DNA of 64,000 nt from Spirosoma panaciterrae DSM 21099 (GTDB lineage Bacteria > Bacteroidota > Bacteroidia > Cytophagales > Spirosomataceae): positions 1 to 64,000 of the forward strand of contig NZ_KB893184.1 in assembly GCF_000374025.1 (NCBI RefSeq), in the 5' to 3' direction. Numbering within the stretch: the first letter of the stretch is position 1; each line of letters begins with the position of its first letter. The notes below the pieces were generated by a model, which worked only from the letters and a program-made list of their open reading frames with translations, made no database searches and was not told the origin of the DNA. Shown here piece after piece: positions 4,106 through 49,492 of the stretch. Position numbers and translations under genes: made by a program.

Positions 4106-4612
4106 TTAGTTTCTTGTAAAGAACTGGATAAGCACGATGCTCAATGTAGTAAAAAACGTGCTGGCAATGACCCGGATGAGCGTTGGAATAATCAACGACA
4201 GGCTACTTGCTTCGATAAAGAACAGCGCCGTATGGTGAATAAGTGCCAATATGGCTACATATCGGAAGAAAGCACCTGTTCCTAATTCTTTTAACGAAAA
4301 TTCGATACGGGATTCAATCCCCGGTACATCGATCTGTGCCCGCACAATGAACGGTCGACTGTATGCCATCAGTACAGTAGCGGCCGCGTGCATACCTAAC
4401 GTATTATAAAACGTATCGACGACGATGCCCGTCACGAAAGCAATGAGCAACAGCCAGGTCAGGCTTGTTTCATTGGGCAGGAGCAGGATGCAGGCAATGT
4501 AAACAAAGCAAAATGCATAATCGAAGAGTACCAGGTTCCGTACAAGCACGATCTGCAATACGAGATAGAGCAAAAATAGCAGTACGGTCGATACGATTTC
4601 GCGAAAAGTCAT
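4106..4612 (-). CDS. mreD: Rod shape-determining protein MreD
   Basis: MreD is an inner-membrane protein of 168 residues with five to six predicted membrane helices. It is part of the elongasome that links MreB filaments to peptidoglycan synthesis. The sequence is poorly conserved, as usual for MreD, and the call rests on size, hydrophobic pattern and position after mreB and mreC. I chose the ATG at 4612 (MTFREIVSTVLLF). A longer frame would need a TTG at 4633, which lies inside an inverted repeat between mreC and mreD. Confidence 0.85.
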   Translation of the reverse strand: MTFREIVSTVLLFLLYLVLQIVLVRNLVLFDYAFCFVYIACILLLPNETSLTWLLLIAFVTGIVVDTFYNTLGMHAAATVLMAYSRPFIVRAQIDVPGIESRIEFSLKELGTGAFFRYVAILALIHHTALFFIEASSLSLIIPTLIRVIASTFFTTLSIVLIQFFTRN

Positions 4613-4631: not shown

Positions 4632-4688
4632 AAAAGTCGTTGGTCAACAGCTTATCCGAATGCCTATTGACCACCGATTTTGACTTTT
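4632..4688. repeat. Imperfect inverted repeat in the mreC-mreD gap
   Basis: AAAAGTC (4632-4638) pairs with GACTTTT (4682-4688), and GTTGGTCAA (4639-4647) pairs with TTGACCACC (4667-4675) with one mismatch. The outer arm overlaps the mreC stop codon. The words resemble those at 24637-24725 and 30311-30405. Confidence 0.55.
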
Positions 4689-5523
4689 ATTTTTCAGTTT
4701 CAACTTGTTTCTCTAACTGGTCCTGCTCCGCTCTCAGCCGATTTTCGACTACGTAGACAAAAGACAGGTTACTGAAATTAGTAGCCAGATTCAAGGTCAG
4801 GTCGTGGAAGGTCTGATTCGGCTGGACACCTACAGTACGAACGCGGCCGACTAGAATACCGGGAGGAAACGTTGAATTAAATTCAGATGTAACGACCGAA
4901 TCACCTTTGGCAACAGGCTTGTAGCGAGGAATGGCATCTAACTTAATCAGGTGAGGGTCGACGCCATCCCATTTGGCCGAGCCAATTTCGCCCGCTTTCA
5001 CCAGCTTCGATGATACCAGAAACTCGGAATGTAGAATGGATGTGATTACCGAAAAATGCTGGTTACAAACTTTTACTTTTCCTACCACACCTGTTGGCGA
5101 AATAACTCCCATGCCCGGACGAATACCGTCGTCGGTGCCTTTGTCGATGGTGATGTAATTGTTGGCAAACTGCGTGGTGTTATTCACGACCTTGGCTACC
5201 GTAAATTTGAACCGATCGGCAAAAGCCGAGTCGGCCTGATATTCAGCAGGAGCCGCTGGTTTGCTCTGGAGTAGTTTGGTTAGCCTGGCGTGAAGTTGTT
5301 GGTTTTCGAGGGCTAGATCGGCATTGACTTGCCGGAGGCTGGCGTACTGATTGGCAGCGTTCGACCAGGCCAGTATCTGAGCCGCATACCGATTCGAGGT
5401 GTTGAAGTACGTTACACCCCAATAGTTGCTGGTGTTGATGATGAAGTAAAAACAAAGTACTTCCAGCAACACAAACAGAATGAAGTTTCGGCTTCGTAAG
5501 AAAAAATCAACTAACTCTCCCAT
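4687..5523 (-). CDS. mreC: Rod shape-determining protein MreC
   Basis: MreC is the periplasmic scaffold of the elongasome, anchored by one N-terminal helix. The start at 5523 gives 278 residues beginning MGELVDFFLRSRNFILF, the usual MreC N-terminus. The open frame continues upstream into the mreB-mreC palindrome, and I regard that extension as non-coding. After the membrane helix (about 10-30) comes a coiled coil (about 55-85, LALENQQLHARLTKL) and then the beta-barrel domain with GIRPGMGVISPTGVVGKV and the late VTSEFNSTFPPGILVGRV. No Shine-Dalgarno sequence precedes the start: the leader is the end of the repeat followed by TATATAT. Confidence 0.95.
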   Translation of the reverse strand: MGELVDFFLRSRNFILFVLLEVLCFYFIINTSNYWGVTYFNTSNRYAAQILAWSNAANQYASLRQVNADLALENQQLHARLTKLLQSKPAAPAEYQADSAFADRFKFTVAKVVNNTTQFANNYITIDKGTDDGIRPGMGVISPTGVVGKVKVCNQHFSVITSILHSEFLVSSKLVKAGEIGSAKWDGVDPHLIKLDAIPRYKPVAKGDSVVTSEFNSTFPPGILVGRVRTVGVQPNQTFHDLTLNLATNFSNLSFVYVVENRLRAEQDQLEKQVETEK

Positions 5524-5530
5524 ATATATA

Positions 5531-5634
5531 AGTAACGTGGTCGGACTGGTGCACCAGCGTCTGGCTCGCACAGTCAAATATTGGCTTTCGACTATGCGGA
5601 CCAGACGCTGGTGCGCCAGTCCGACCACGTTACT
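5531..5634. repeat. REP/BIME-like 104-nt palindrome filling the mreB-mreC gap
   Basis: The outer 34 nt, 5531-5564 and 5601-5634, are inverted copies with one mismatch. Pairing continues inward for about 11 more positions with three mismatches. Each arm contains its own smaller palindrome, CTGGTGCACCAG in the left arm and CTGGTGCGCCAG in the right. The element ends exactly at the mreB stop codon (5635) and 7 nt before the mreC ATG, so it forms the whole gap. Two REP-like palindromes in inverted orientation are typical of BIMEs mobilised by RAYT transposases; no RAYT gene is in the window. Confidence 0.85.
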
Positions 5635-6660
5635 TTAACTAATCAGAACAGATTTGTACAAATCCAGGTTCTTAATTACTTCACCCGTGCCTTTTACAAC
5701 CGCTTTGAGCGGGTCGTCGGCTACGTGGATCGGCAGTTTCGTTTTGGCGCCCAGCCGCTTGTCGAGACCATGCAGCAACGCTCCCCCACCTGTCAGGTGA
5801 ATGCCGTTCGTGTAAATATCGGCCGACAGCTCCGGTGGCGAAATTTCAAGGGCTTTCATGGTAGCCTCTTCAATTTTCGAGATCGACTTGTCGAGCGAGT
5901 AGGCAATTTCGCTGTAGGTAACCTTGATTTCTTTCGGAATCCCCGTCATCAGGTCGCGGCCCCGGATTTCATAATCGGCAGGCGGATTATCGAGTTCGGG
6001 CAGGGCTGAACCCACTTCCATCTTTATCTGCTCAGCCGACCGTTCGCCGATGAGCAGGTTGTGTTCCCGACGCATGTAGTCGACAATGTCCCGTGTAAAG
6101 ACGTCGCCCGCAATCCGGATCGACTGTTCGCAGACGATACCCGACAGGGCAATCACGGCAATTTCAGTAGTACCACCGCCAATGTCGACAATCATCGTAC
6201 CGTTAGGCTGGGTAATATCGATCCCGATCCCGATGGCTGCGGCAATAGGCTCGTGCACCATATACACTTCTTTTGCCCCGGCATGCTCGGCAGAGTCTTT
6301 AACGGCCCGTTTCTCCACTTCGGTAATCCCCGATGGAATACAGATGACCATTCGGTGCGAGGGCGAAAAAAGCTTGCTGCCCGTATCGATCATCTTAATC
6401 ATGCCCCGAATCATGAGTTCGGCTGCCGTAAAATCGGCAATGACACCATCTTTCAGGGGGCGAATGGTTTTGATATTTTCGTTCGTCTTTTCATGCATCT
6501 GCATGGCCTTATGGCCAATCGCCAGCACTTTTCCGCTGACTTTGTCCATTGCAATAATCGAAGGCTCATCCACCACAATCCTGTCCTTGTGAATAATCAA
6601 GGTATTCGCTGTGCCCAGGTCAATTGCAATGTCGCTGGTTAGAAAATTAAAAAGTCCCAT
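5635..6660 (-). CDS. mreB: Rod shape-determining protein MreB (bacterial actin)
   Basis: MreB is an ATP-binding actin homologue that polymerises under the inner membrane and directs side-wall peptidoglycan synthesis. At 341 residues it has the family length. Visible motifs are the phosphate-1 loop DLGTANT (14-20), the phosphate-2 loop DIGGGTTEIAV near residue 160 and the adenosine motif LTGGGALLHGLD near residue 290. The N-terminus MGLFNFLTSDIAIDLG is typical of the family. mreC and mreD follow on the same strand. A TATTTTTG box on the minus strand (6721-6714), 54 nt before the start, is a likely promoter. Confidence 0.98.
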   Translation of the reverse strand: MGLFNFLTSDIAIDLGTANTLIIHKDRIVVDEPSIIAMDKVSGKVLAIGHKAMQMHEKTNENIKTIRPLKDGVIADFTAAELMIRGMIKMIDTGSKLFSPSHRMVICIPSGITEVEKRAVKDSAEHAGAKEVYMVHEPIAAAIGIGIDITQPNGTMIVDIGGGTTEIAVIALSGIVCEQSIRIAGDVFTRDIVDYMRREHNLLIGERSAEQIKMEVGSALPELDNPPADYEIRGRDLMTGIPKEIKVTYSEIAYSLDKSISKIEEATMKALEISPPELSADIYTNGIHLTGGGALLHGLDKRLGAKTKLPIHVADDPLKAVVKGTGEVIKNLDLYKSVLIS

Positions 6661-18966: not shown

Positions 18967-20193
18967 ATGGAGAAAATTAAGGTAGCGAATCCGGTTGTCG
19001 AACTGGATGGCGACGAAATGACCCGTATCATCTGGAAATTCATTAAAGATAAGCTGATTCTGCCCTACGTTGACGTTGATATTAAATATTACGACCTCGG
19101 CATCGAATACCGCGACGAAACCAACGACCAGGTAACGATTGATGCGGCCAATGCCATTAAAGAATACGGTGTCGGTATCAAATGTGCTACCATCACGCCC
19201 GACGAAGACCGTGTGAAAGAATTCAATCTGAAGCAGATGTGGAAATCGCCGAACGGTACCATTCGGAACATTCTGGATGGTACGGTGTTCCGTGAGCCGA
19301 TTGTGATGAGCAACGTTCCCCGTCTGGTCGTAAACTGGAAAGCACCGATCATCGTAGGTCGTCACGCGTTTGGCGATCAGTATCGGGCTACGGATTTCGT
19401 GGTACCTGGTAAAGGTAAACTGACCATGAAATTTGAAGGCGAAGACGGTACTGTACAAGAGTATGACGTATTCAACTTCAAAGGTCCGGGTGTAGCCATG
19501 GGCATGTACAACGTCGATGAATCGATCAAAGGGTTTGCCCGTTCGTGCTTCAACGTGGCCGTTCAGAAAGGCTGGCCGCTGTACCTGTCGACCAAAAATA
19601 CCATCCTGAAAAAATACGACGGTCGTTTCAAAGATATCTTCCAGGAAATCTACGAAACCGAGTTCAAAAGCACAGGCGTACATTACGAACATCGCCTGAT
19701 CGACGACATGGTAGCTTCGGCCCTGAAATGGGAAGGAAACTTTGTATGGGCTTGTAAGAACTATGATGGTGATGTTCAGTCGGATACGGTTGCTCAGGGC
19801 TTTGGTTCGCTGGGTCTGATGACGTCTGTTCTGCTGACACCCGATGGCAATACGATGGAAGCTGAAGCGGCTCACGGTACCGTAACCCGTCACTATCGCG
19901 AATACCAGAAAGGAAATAAAACCTCGACCAACCCGATTGCATCGATCTACGCCTGGACCCGTGGACTGGCGTTCCGTGGTAAACTGGATGGCAATCAGGA
20001 ATTGATCGATTTCGCTAATGCACTCGAAGACGTTTGCGTTGAGACTGTTGAAAGCGGAAAAATGACCAAAGACCTGGCTCTGTCGGCATTCCCTGATGTG
20101 AAGAATCTGGTGGCTGGTGAACACTACCTGTATACTGAAGACTTCCTCGAAGCGCTGGATACCAACCTGAAAGCGAAACTGAACCGGGATTAA
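18967..20193 (+). CDS. icd: NADP-dependent isocitrate dehydrogenase, type II
   Basis: This enzyme oxidises isocitrate to 2-oxoglutarate with NADP in the citric acid cycle. From the ATG at 18967 ([20 protein letters not shown]) it has 408 residues, the length of the homodimeric eukaryote-like type II enzymes. Substrate-loop and metal residues appear in [19 protein letters not shown] and in [20 protein letters not shown], and the cofactor region is [15 protein letters not shown]. An upstream extension to a TTG at 18931 overlaps the promoter region and is rejected. A hairpin terminator lies downstream at 20291-20323. Confidence 0.97.
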
Positions 20194-20194
20194 A

Positions 20195-20271
20195 CTGATT
20201 TTGGGATTTTCAGGATTTTGCTAGAGCGCTTCTTTGAAGCGAAAACAAAATCCTGAAAATCCCAAAATCAG
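20195..20271. repeat. 26-bp perfect inverted repeat after icd
   Basis: 20195-20220 (starting CTGATTTTGGGATTTTCAGG) is perfectly complementary to 20246-20271. The 25-nt spacer contains a second small hairpin, CGCTTC-TTT-GAAGCG. It starts 1 nt after the icd stop. It is followed by a separate terminator, so termination is probably not its only role. Confidence 0.85.
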
Positions 20272-20290
20272 CTAAATCCCGGTTCAGACG

Positions 20291-20776: not shown

Positions 20777-20867
20777 CTTTTGTCATCCCGACAGAGGTGG
20801 GATCTTAATGTATCCTGAATGTGAGTAAGGACACTTTAAGATCCCTCCTCCGTTGGCATGACAAAAG
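20777..20867. repeat. Inverted repeat of the TTTTGTCATCCC type between Dabb gene and glpK
   Basis: 20777-20808 pairs with 20836-20867 over 32 nt with four mismatches. The arm begins CTTTTGTCATCCCGACAGAG. The right arm ends exactly next to the glpK stop codon (20868-20870). The two genes converge, so the structure may end transcripts from both sides. Confidence 0.85.
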
Positions 20868-41865: not shown

Positions 41866-41949
41866 AGAGTGAAAGAGCGAAAGAGTGAATAAGTGAAATC
41901 AGCTTTCATCAGCTTTTCTCACTCATTCACTCTTTCGCTCTTTCACTCT
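41866..41949. repeat. Purine-rich inverted repeat in the porV-M16 gap
   Basis: 41866-41896 (AGAGTGAAAGAGCGAAAGAG...) pairs with 41919-41949 over 31 nt with one mismatch; the spacer is 22 nt. Each arm is itself built of GAAAGAGYG words. The first arm starts directly after the porV stop and the second ends 10 nt before the next ATG. Confidence 0.88.
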
Positions 41950-47093: not shown

Positions 47094-47166
47094 TAGGATG
47101 TAGGATGTATGTTATAAGATGTAGGTGACATTATACTAAGCCTTATAGCATACATCCTACATCCTA
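47094..47166. repeat. 25-nt inverted repeat in the gap before purB
   Basis: 47094-47118 (TAGGATGTAGGATGTATG...) pairs with 47142-47166 with one mismatch; the spacer is 23 nt. The arm itself contains the direct repeat TAGGATG. More of the same words (CATATCATACATC) continue to 47188, 1 nt before the purB ATG. Confidence 0.85.
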
Positions 47167-49427: not shown

Positions 49428-49492
49428 AGAACGTAGAAAAGGGACGAACAGGTGAGACACTCTTTCTCCCCTTCGTCCCTTTTCTACGTTCT
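49428..49492. repeat. 21-bp perfect inverted repeat between the TlpA-like gene and proC
   Basis: 49428-49448 (AGAACGTAGAAAAGGGACGA, plus one base) pairs perfectly with 49472-49492; the spacer is 23 nt. Both genes run on the minus strand, and the structure ends 16 nt before the proC start. No T tract follows. Confidence 0.88.

Follow-up and report, generated by a model that had tools for sequence, protein, structure and literature searches.

Introduction

REPs, REP dimers and RAYT transposases are already known, in Bacteroidetes as well (available text of PMC6006769). The closest described systems are the GTAG-tagged REP dimers and REPtrons. In the excerpts of Nunvar 2010 (PMC2817692) and Di Nocera 2013 (PMC3733652) used here, tagged palindromes stand in head-to-head pairs, mostly between tandem or convergent genes and downstream of coding regions, and RAYT genes are flanked by their own units. 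We found the same arrangements in Spirosoma. REPs usually exceed 100 copies per genome (excerpt of PMC2817692), and the sections available from PMC3733652 assign GTAG repeats to Proteobacteria, Cyanobacteria, Chloroflexi and the PVC group and CGTC repeats to Bacteroidetes. In contrast, the elements that we describe carry a GTAA or GTAG tag in a Bacteroidota genus, and their arms may hold an inserted palindromic module. The accessible part of PMC6006769 reports REP-flanked RAYTs in Bacteroidetes, with GT[AG]G-tagged long and "double foot" REPs in subclass 2.4 and "atypical secondary structures" recurring in the genome in subclass 2.6. The Spirosoma head-to-head dimers with short spacers resemble the "double foot" REPs. 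However, that part of the TnpA-REP account holds no counterpart to a single operon site that has been refilled repeatedly across species.

It has long been suspected that REPs both spread selfishly and serve the host, and neither is easy to demonstrate at any one site. The REP pair between malE and malF of Escherichia coli lies between two cistrons of one operon needing unequal amounts, and it is known as one insertion in one lineage. The Spirosoma element is alike in this placement between cistrons; however, its position is kept across the genus while the families change. In the 36 species studied here, the sequence at one position next to a cell-shape operon has been naturally replaced many times, and three of its types are linked to a RAYT from within the genus. 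Because so many natural replacements fall at one defined position, the question of whether the host keeps the hairpin is directly testable by hairpin swaps in one strain. We take two things to be new: an operon position that a succession of REP families keeps occupied, and a palindromic module nested in REP arms. Literature searches returned no paper on REPs in Spirosoma among the matches listed and none on a hairpin in the mreB-mreC gap; in the text available from PMC10821818, on Aquirufa and Spirosomataceae, the term "rayt" is present once.

Results

We analyzed the first 64,000 nucleotides of contig NZ_KB893184.1 of Spirosoma panaciterrae DSM 21099 (the window; its source genome is G000). 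The mreBC mRNA corresponds to the minus strand, and the MreB and MreC identities are backed by both NCBIfam and Pfam. The closest named MreC, from Spirosoma sp. 48-14 (L070), is 100% identical; as the coordinates agree, we equate this strain with G046. A 168-aa protein in the mreD position (window 4109-4612) had no NCBIfam or Pfam match at E 0.001. The gap between mreB and mreC is 111 nt long (5524-5634), and nearly all of it is taken up by an inverted repeat (Table 1).

A first-pass annotation, made from the letters alone, had described a REP-like repeat filling this gap, with 34-nt arms that contained one mismatch and ran from the base beside the mreB stop to 7 nt before mreC. The repeat was recovered as a near-perfect RNA hairpin. 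Read by eye, its outer 34 bp do contain one mismatch, but the repeat search gave a true arm length of 49 nt with 90% complementarity. The ends shift slightly as well: the final A of the mreB stop is already part of the repeat, and 6 nt (ATATAT) separate the other end from the mreC ATG. Folding of 5490-5660 gave -99.2 kcal/mol, against -43.3 ± 4.2 in 200 shuffles (z -13.3), in agreement with the very stable mRNA hairpin that had been proposed ahead of mreC. Each arm also has a palindrome of its own, as annotated (CTGGTGCACCAG at 5546 and CTGGTGCGCCAG at 5608). At one mismatch or less, these nested 12-mers gave 5 matches in the window where 0.56 were expected, and four of the five were these two sites on both strands. 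A missing Shine-Dalgarno sequence, to which the annotation had drawn attention, is ordinary in Bacteroidota. Neither the terminator listing nor a reading of the sequence revealed a T run between the stem and mreC. A search of Rfam gave no match above the gathering score for the element; the three sub-threshold matches, all to microRNA families, were rejected as long-hairpin artifacts.

Table 1. Features of the mreB-mreC region, in window coordinates
Feature	Position	Strand	Basis
mreB, upstream cistron, 341 aa, stop TAA 5635-5637	5635..6660	-	TIGR00904, 413.5 bits (cutoff 365.75)
mreC, downstream cistron, 278 aa, ATG 5521-5523	4687..5523	-	NF010532, 309.4 bits (cutoff 243)
Putative REP head-to-head dimer (BIME/REPIN-like), single long hairpin on the mreBC mRNA strand	5530..5635	-	Repeat search and fold
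5' arm, in mRNA sense GTAACGTGG + inserted palindromic module + GTCTGGTCCGCATAG	5587..5635	-	Repeat search and comparison
18-nt palindromic module TCGGACTGGCGCACCAGC, nested in the 5' arm	5607..5624	-	Close copies in other REP elements and species
Loop separating the arms, 8 nt	5579..5586	.	Repeat search
3' arm, the other unit in reverse orientation, tag GTAACG at 5532	5530..5578	+	Repeat search and reading of the arms
18-nt palindromic module TCGGACTGGTGCACCAGC, nested in the 3' arm	5541..5558	+	Sequence

We then compared the element with the rest of G000. With up to 3 mismatches allowed, we found 22 matches to the core unit GTARCGYGGACMWCYKGTCCGCA, two of them overlapping each other, and a single match to the reversed pattern used as a control; the copy number of the unit is low beside the more than 100 usual for REPs. 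Dimers lie near C2:336476, C6:6040, C22:75150, C24:356349, C25:32294, C71:8691, C13:116484 and C1:587841. In several of these the two arms differ, and inverted pairing with a short spacer is common to the window element and other dimers. The tag in this family is mostly GTAA rather than the canonical GTAG or GTGG, with GTAG in the C6 copy.

The arms in the window are composite: GTAACGTGG is followed by an 18-nt palindromic module, TCGGACTGGYGCACCAGC, and then by the rest of the unit, and gaps are needed to align the composite to the core unit. A 22-mer arm search of G000 at up to 3 mismatches returned the two window arms and two single sites with 3 mismatches each. Thus, the annotation's expectation of further genomic copies held for the core unit but not for the exact window arm, which is single-copy because of its extra module. 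The 22-mer search had first suggested that the sequence of the element was unique. This was corrected by a DNA search with the whole element, which gave weak partial matches; two of these are hairpins that share the window's tip (GTCCGCATAG) and foot (GTAACG) around a different middle. With a core unit that recurs in the genome, arms that are GTAA-tagged palindromes, and RAYT genes bracketed by the unit in two other Spirosoma species, the REP/BIME identity first proposed is supported, and the sequence comparisons make the element almost certainly a REP head-to-head dimer.

The 18-nt palindromic module CCGGGCTGGYGCACCAGC was also observed within the arms of different REP elements and on its own. 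Close copies are present in one arm only of the C13:116484 element of G000 (L066, position 785) and of a G023 element (L057), and in both arms of a G042 element with GTAGCCTGG feet (L287:26-125) and of a similar G009 element (L060:1431-1528). In G014 (L061:1501-1540) the module stands alone as a 40-bp perfect palindrome.

The association with RAYT transposases was found in other species of the genus. In G042, the RAYT gene L248 (NF047646, 99.3 bits; cutoff 80) has GTAACGCGGACATCCTGTCCGCA dimers on both sides, and its 73% homologue L335 in G023 is likewise bracketed by this unit, which is the core unit of the window. If the REP identity is true, a RAYT of the L248 type is predicted to bind or cleave GTAACGCGGACATCCTGTCCGC single strands. 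The L248 motifs NHVH and YILQNP are nearer those printed for subclass 2.7 than those for 2.4 or 2.6 in the available text of PMC6006769, as judged by comparison of the motifs. Other RAYTs have other neighbors: L249, L251, L259 and the broken gene L260 are flanked by GTAACGCGGGTGGAAACCCGC or close variants, and L356 by GTAGCCTGGACGTCCACGTCC, so that the flanking units are specific to the RAYT concerned. The GTAACGCGGGTGGAAACCCGC and GTAGCCTGGACGTCCACGTCC units belong to two of the three commonest types in the mreB-mreC gap; for the third, GTAGTGCCGG, no RAYT was found among the Spirosoma genomes searched. We counted hairpins beside 27 RAYT places (29, less 2 at contig edges) and found long hairpins on both sides of 17, on one side of 6 and on neither side of 4. 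The same count at purU as a control (n = 29) gave 0, 3 and 26, respectively. Excluded from the RAYT count were short or weak pieces (L253, L254, L261-L263, L355 and L363), a broken copy in G043 (near 6142738) and repeat entries for a place already counted.

The annotation had also called for a RAYT in the source genome itself. There, the sole RAYT-like gene (L068/L234) scores 75.3 bits with NF047646, below the cutoff of 80, and no hairpins were found beside it; the bracketed genes are those of G042 and G023. No RAYT flanked by the composite form, core unit plus 18-nt module, was seen among the RAYT flanks examined. RAYT matches were obtained in 21 of the 36 Spirosoma genomes with one query and in 22 with another. 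The gap structure is nevertheless present in 13 of the 14 genomes without a match under either query. Therefore, a present RAYT is not needed for keeping the structure. A second transposase gene of G000, L067, is of the IS200/IS605 type and was rejected as a RAYT, as it passes the IS200 model and not the RAYT model. About 900 bp downstream of it lies a GTAACACGG-tagged hairpin (L067:2885-2970, C46).

We examined the gap in all 36 Spirosoma genomes, the annotation having asked whether relatives lack the insert. Its minimum free energy (MFE) is -26 kcal/mol or lower in 34 genomes, and z is below -3 in 33. In these 34 structured gaps, the first paired base lies 0 to 8 nt after the mreB stop and the last 0 to 15 nt before the mreC ATG. 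Most fold as one hairpin; type D folds as two. The exceptions are G024 and G044, which are sister rows with gaps of 30 to 35 nt and no hairpin. Thus, the hairpin is dispensable in at least one lineage.

The sequence that forms the hairpin varies. Sorting by eye gave eleven sequence types plus "none," with GTAA or GTAG at the 5' foot in 26 of the 36 genomes by reading; an automatic tag test gave 30 but took in false feet at L206, L212, L221 and L225. Types D, F and G are not recognizable as REPs. On an mreB+mreC tree (36 rows, 17 of 33 inner branches starred), the types need 17 changes; treating the GTAACG types as one lowers this to 15. The minimum for 12 states is 11, shuffled labels average 23, and none of 200 shuffles was as low. 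Thus, inheritance accounts for part of the type distribution, and replacement has been frequent. The window and G046 differ in gap type and share the foot AGTAACG, with mreB DNA 92.1% identical and MreB and MreC 99.6 to 100% identical. A sequence that is single-copy and conserved in distant relatives had been named as the contrary case; the exact arm is indeed single-copy, but relatives keep the position and the hairpin, not the sequence. In the G004 gap (L194), 16 extra nt stand in the 5' arm just past GTAACGCG, compared with L191, and form a new small palindrome with the tag. From its sequence, this stretch looks as if it were a template-switch copy or a nested insertion.

Long hairpins are a general habit of these genomes, and we therefore compared the gap with several controls. 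In 864 kb of G000, consisting of two contig stretches and the window and thus not a random sample, there are 122 long hairpins, 1 of them inside a called gene. Among gaps of 30 to 400 nt, a hairpin is present in 69 of the 352 between tandem genes, 31 of the 81 between convergent genes and 5 of the 100 between divergent genes, with gene calls that cover 81 to 88% of the sample (74 to 81% with an earlier caller). Hairpins with a GTAA or GTAG foot are rare in tandem gaps even under an automatic, lenient test (8/352 in G000, 2/121 in G017 and 4/130 in G042). An MFE of -0.5 kcal/mol per nt or lower was reached by 22 of the 36 mreB-mreC gaps, whatever their length, and for comparison by 42 of 348 tandem gaps of 60 to 160 nt from three genomes. 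Under strict arm scoring (at least 15), 20 of the 36 gaps count, against 123 of 603 control gaps. At 24 named loci from Spirosoma and near genera, a hairpin score of at least 12 was found in 18 of 24 mreB-mreC gaps and in 6/24, 2/21 and 0/11 of the next gaps; several control gaps are too short for a hairpin, and with gaps of at least 30 nt only, the second gives 6/20 and the third 2/8. By the same score, 26 of 36 genomes carry a hairpin at mreB-mreC, whereas 3 of 30 species carry one at another REP site of G000, which lies 3' of purU. Because the rows are related by descent, Fisher p-values, which take related genomes as independent, are only a guide to these comparisons.

The site 3' of purU in G042 (L308) holds a dimer of the window's core-unit family, at the same place as in G000; 27 of the 30 species have no hairpin there. 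Long 3'-end hairpins also stand elsewhere in the window, at 41866-41949, 20179-20287, 20777-20867, 47094-47166 and 49428-49492 (and in L150-L189). The genome has unrelated hairpin "dialects," among them AAAGAGTGAAAGAGCGAA, GGGAGGAAAGGGACGAAGGG, GGGCATAGGGGTAAGGG, TAGGATGTAGGATGTATG, CTGAACCGGGATTTATGGG and TTTTGTCATCCCGACGAAGGAGGGATC, which often lie a few nucleotides past stop codons and rarely between divergent genes.

Beyond Spirosoma, the gap reaches an MFE of -26 or lower in 22 of the 23 loci from other Cytophagales genera in which mreB was found (L094-L118, without L100 and L109), although some of these values are helped by gaps of 181 to 386 nt; the exception, L098, has a 36-nt gap. Dyadobacter (7 rows) and Telluribacter (2 rows) have an inherited hairpin in the gap that is unlike REPs. 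Over these 9 rows, three of which are nearly identical, 11 of 17 pairs have changed on both sides with pairing kept. As related genera have hairpins at the same gap, having a hairpin belongs to the position itself in this group, and in Spirosoma it is mostly REPs that fill it.

Discussion

We consider it likely that the mreB-mreC gap is a conserved hairpin position that is refilled by successive REP families, is occupied in the window by a REP dimer, and would act in the mreBC mRNA. Selection on the position of the hairpin is, on balance, probable. What the host would need between mreB and mreC is the hairpin structure rather than any specific sequence, which would allow one REP dimer to overwrite another. 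A RAYT may once have placed the unit pair of the window in the gap, its cognate gene since being lost from the present genome. Transcription through the gap would form the hairpin right after the mreB stop and just ahead of the mreC start, where it could keep 3' exonucleases away from the 3' terminus of the mreB mRNA and limit what reaches mreC, be it transcription, mRNA survival or initiation. The outcome would be MreB in excess of MreC, as for the REP between malE and malF. We hold tentatively, at somewhat less than even confidence, that the hairpin alters expression towards more MreB than MreC; the annotation's suggestion that it could set the MreB:MreC ratio is plausible. Because stop-proximal REPs in E. 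coli lower upstream translation, the effect on MreB could have the opposite sign. Equally tentative is a wider proposal: that the Spirosoma mreB-mreC transcript requires a hairpin of no particular sequence, that RAYT-driven REP families alternate as its suppliers, and that host function and mobile-element persistence have been coupled at a single site for as long as the genus has existed.

Could the gap instead be a place where REPs preferentially land or recombine, for instance because an older palindrome is their target, with no selected role for the hairpin? In favor of such a hot spot, REP-in-REP structures exist: the 18-nt module lies inside units that belong to more than one REP family, and an insertion beside the tag distinguishes L194 from L191. 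The 17 changes of type on the tree also speak for it. However, Dyadobacter and Telluribacter keep a non-REP hairpin with compensatory changes, the purU site, also used by a REP in G000, has a hairpin in only 3 of 30 species, and empty gaps are confined to a single clade (2 of 36); we therefore judge a hot spot without selection the less probable account, though one of some weight. That the hairpin chiefly damps mreB translation strikes us as unlikely. In that account, a REP within 15 nt of the stop stalls terminating ribosomes and upstream output falls, as the available text of PMC12306157 describes for E. coli REPs less than 16 nt from a stop codon, and the spacing of 0 to 8 nt in the 34 structured Spirosoma gaps fits. 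The precedent found comes from E. coli, however, and it leaves unexplained why the downstream end stays 0 to 15 nt from the mreC start.

A plain intrinsic terminator or attenuator of the mre operon would agree with the long hairpins of G000 being 3'-end elements (the tandem, convergent and divergent counts above), but there is no T run between the stem and mreC, usual terminators have far shorter stems, and the core unit is linked to RAYTs, which makes this quite improbable. We give hardly any credence to an inherited structured RNA, a cis-regulator of the mre operon rather than a repeat. Its position is conserved in the genus and in related genera, as such an RNA would be; however, the sequence differs even between the window and G046 despite their nearly identical MreB and MreC, the core unit recurs in the genome, and the Rfam matches are limited to the sub-threshold microRNA families. 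Inheritance of this kind is contradicted for Spirosoma and is possible for Dyadobacter.

Among more distant Bacteroidota (L120-L149), many mreB-mreC gaps are short and unstructured. Barnesiella and relatives (L125-L128 and L131), which are gut Bacteroidales, have a different mreB-mreC hairpin of their own that is similar in appearance (GACGAGTTACAAAGGC...GCCTTTGTAACTCG and variants).
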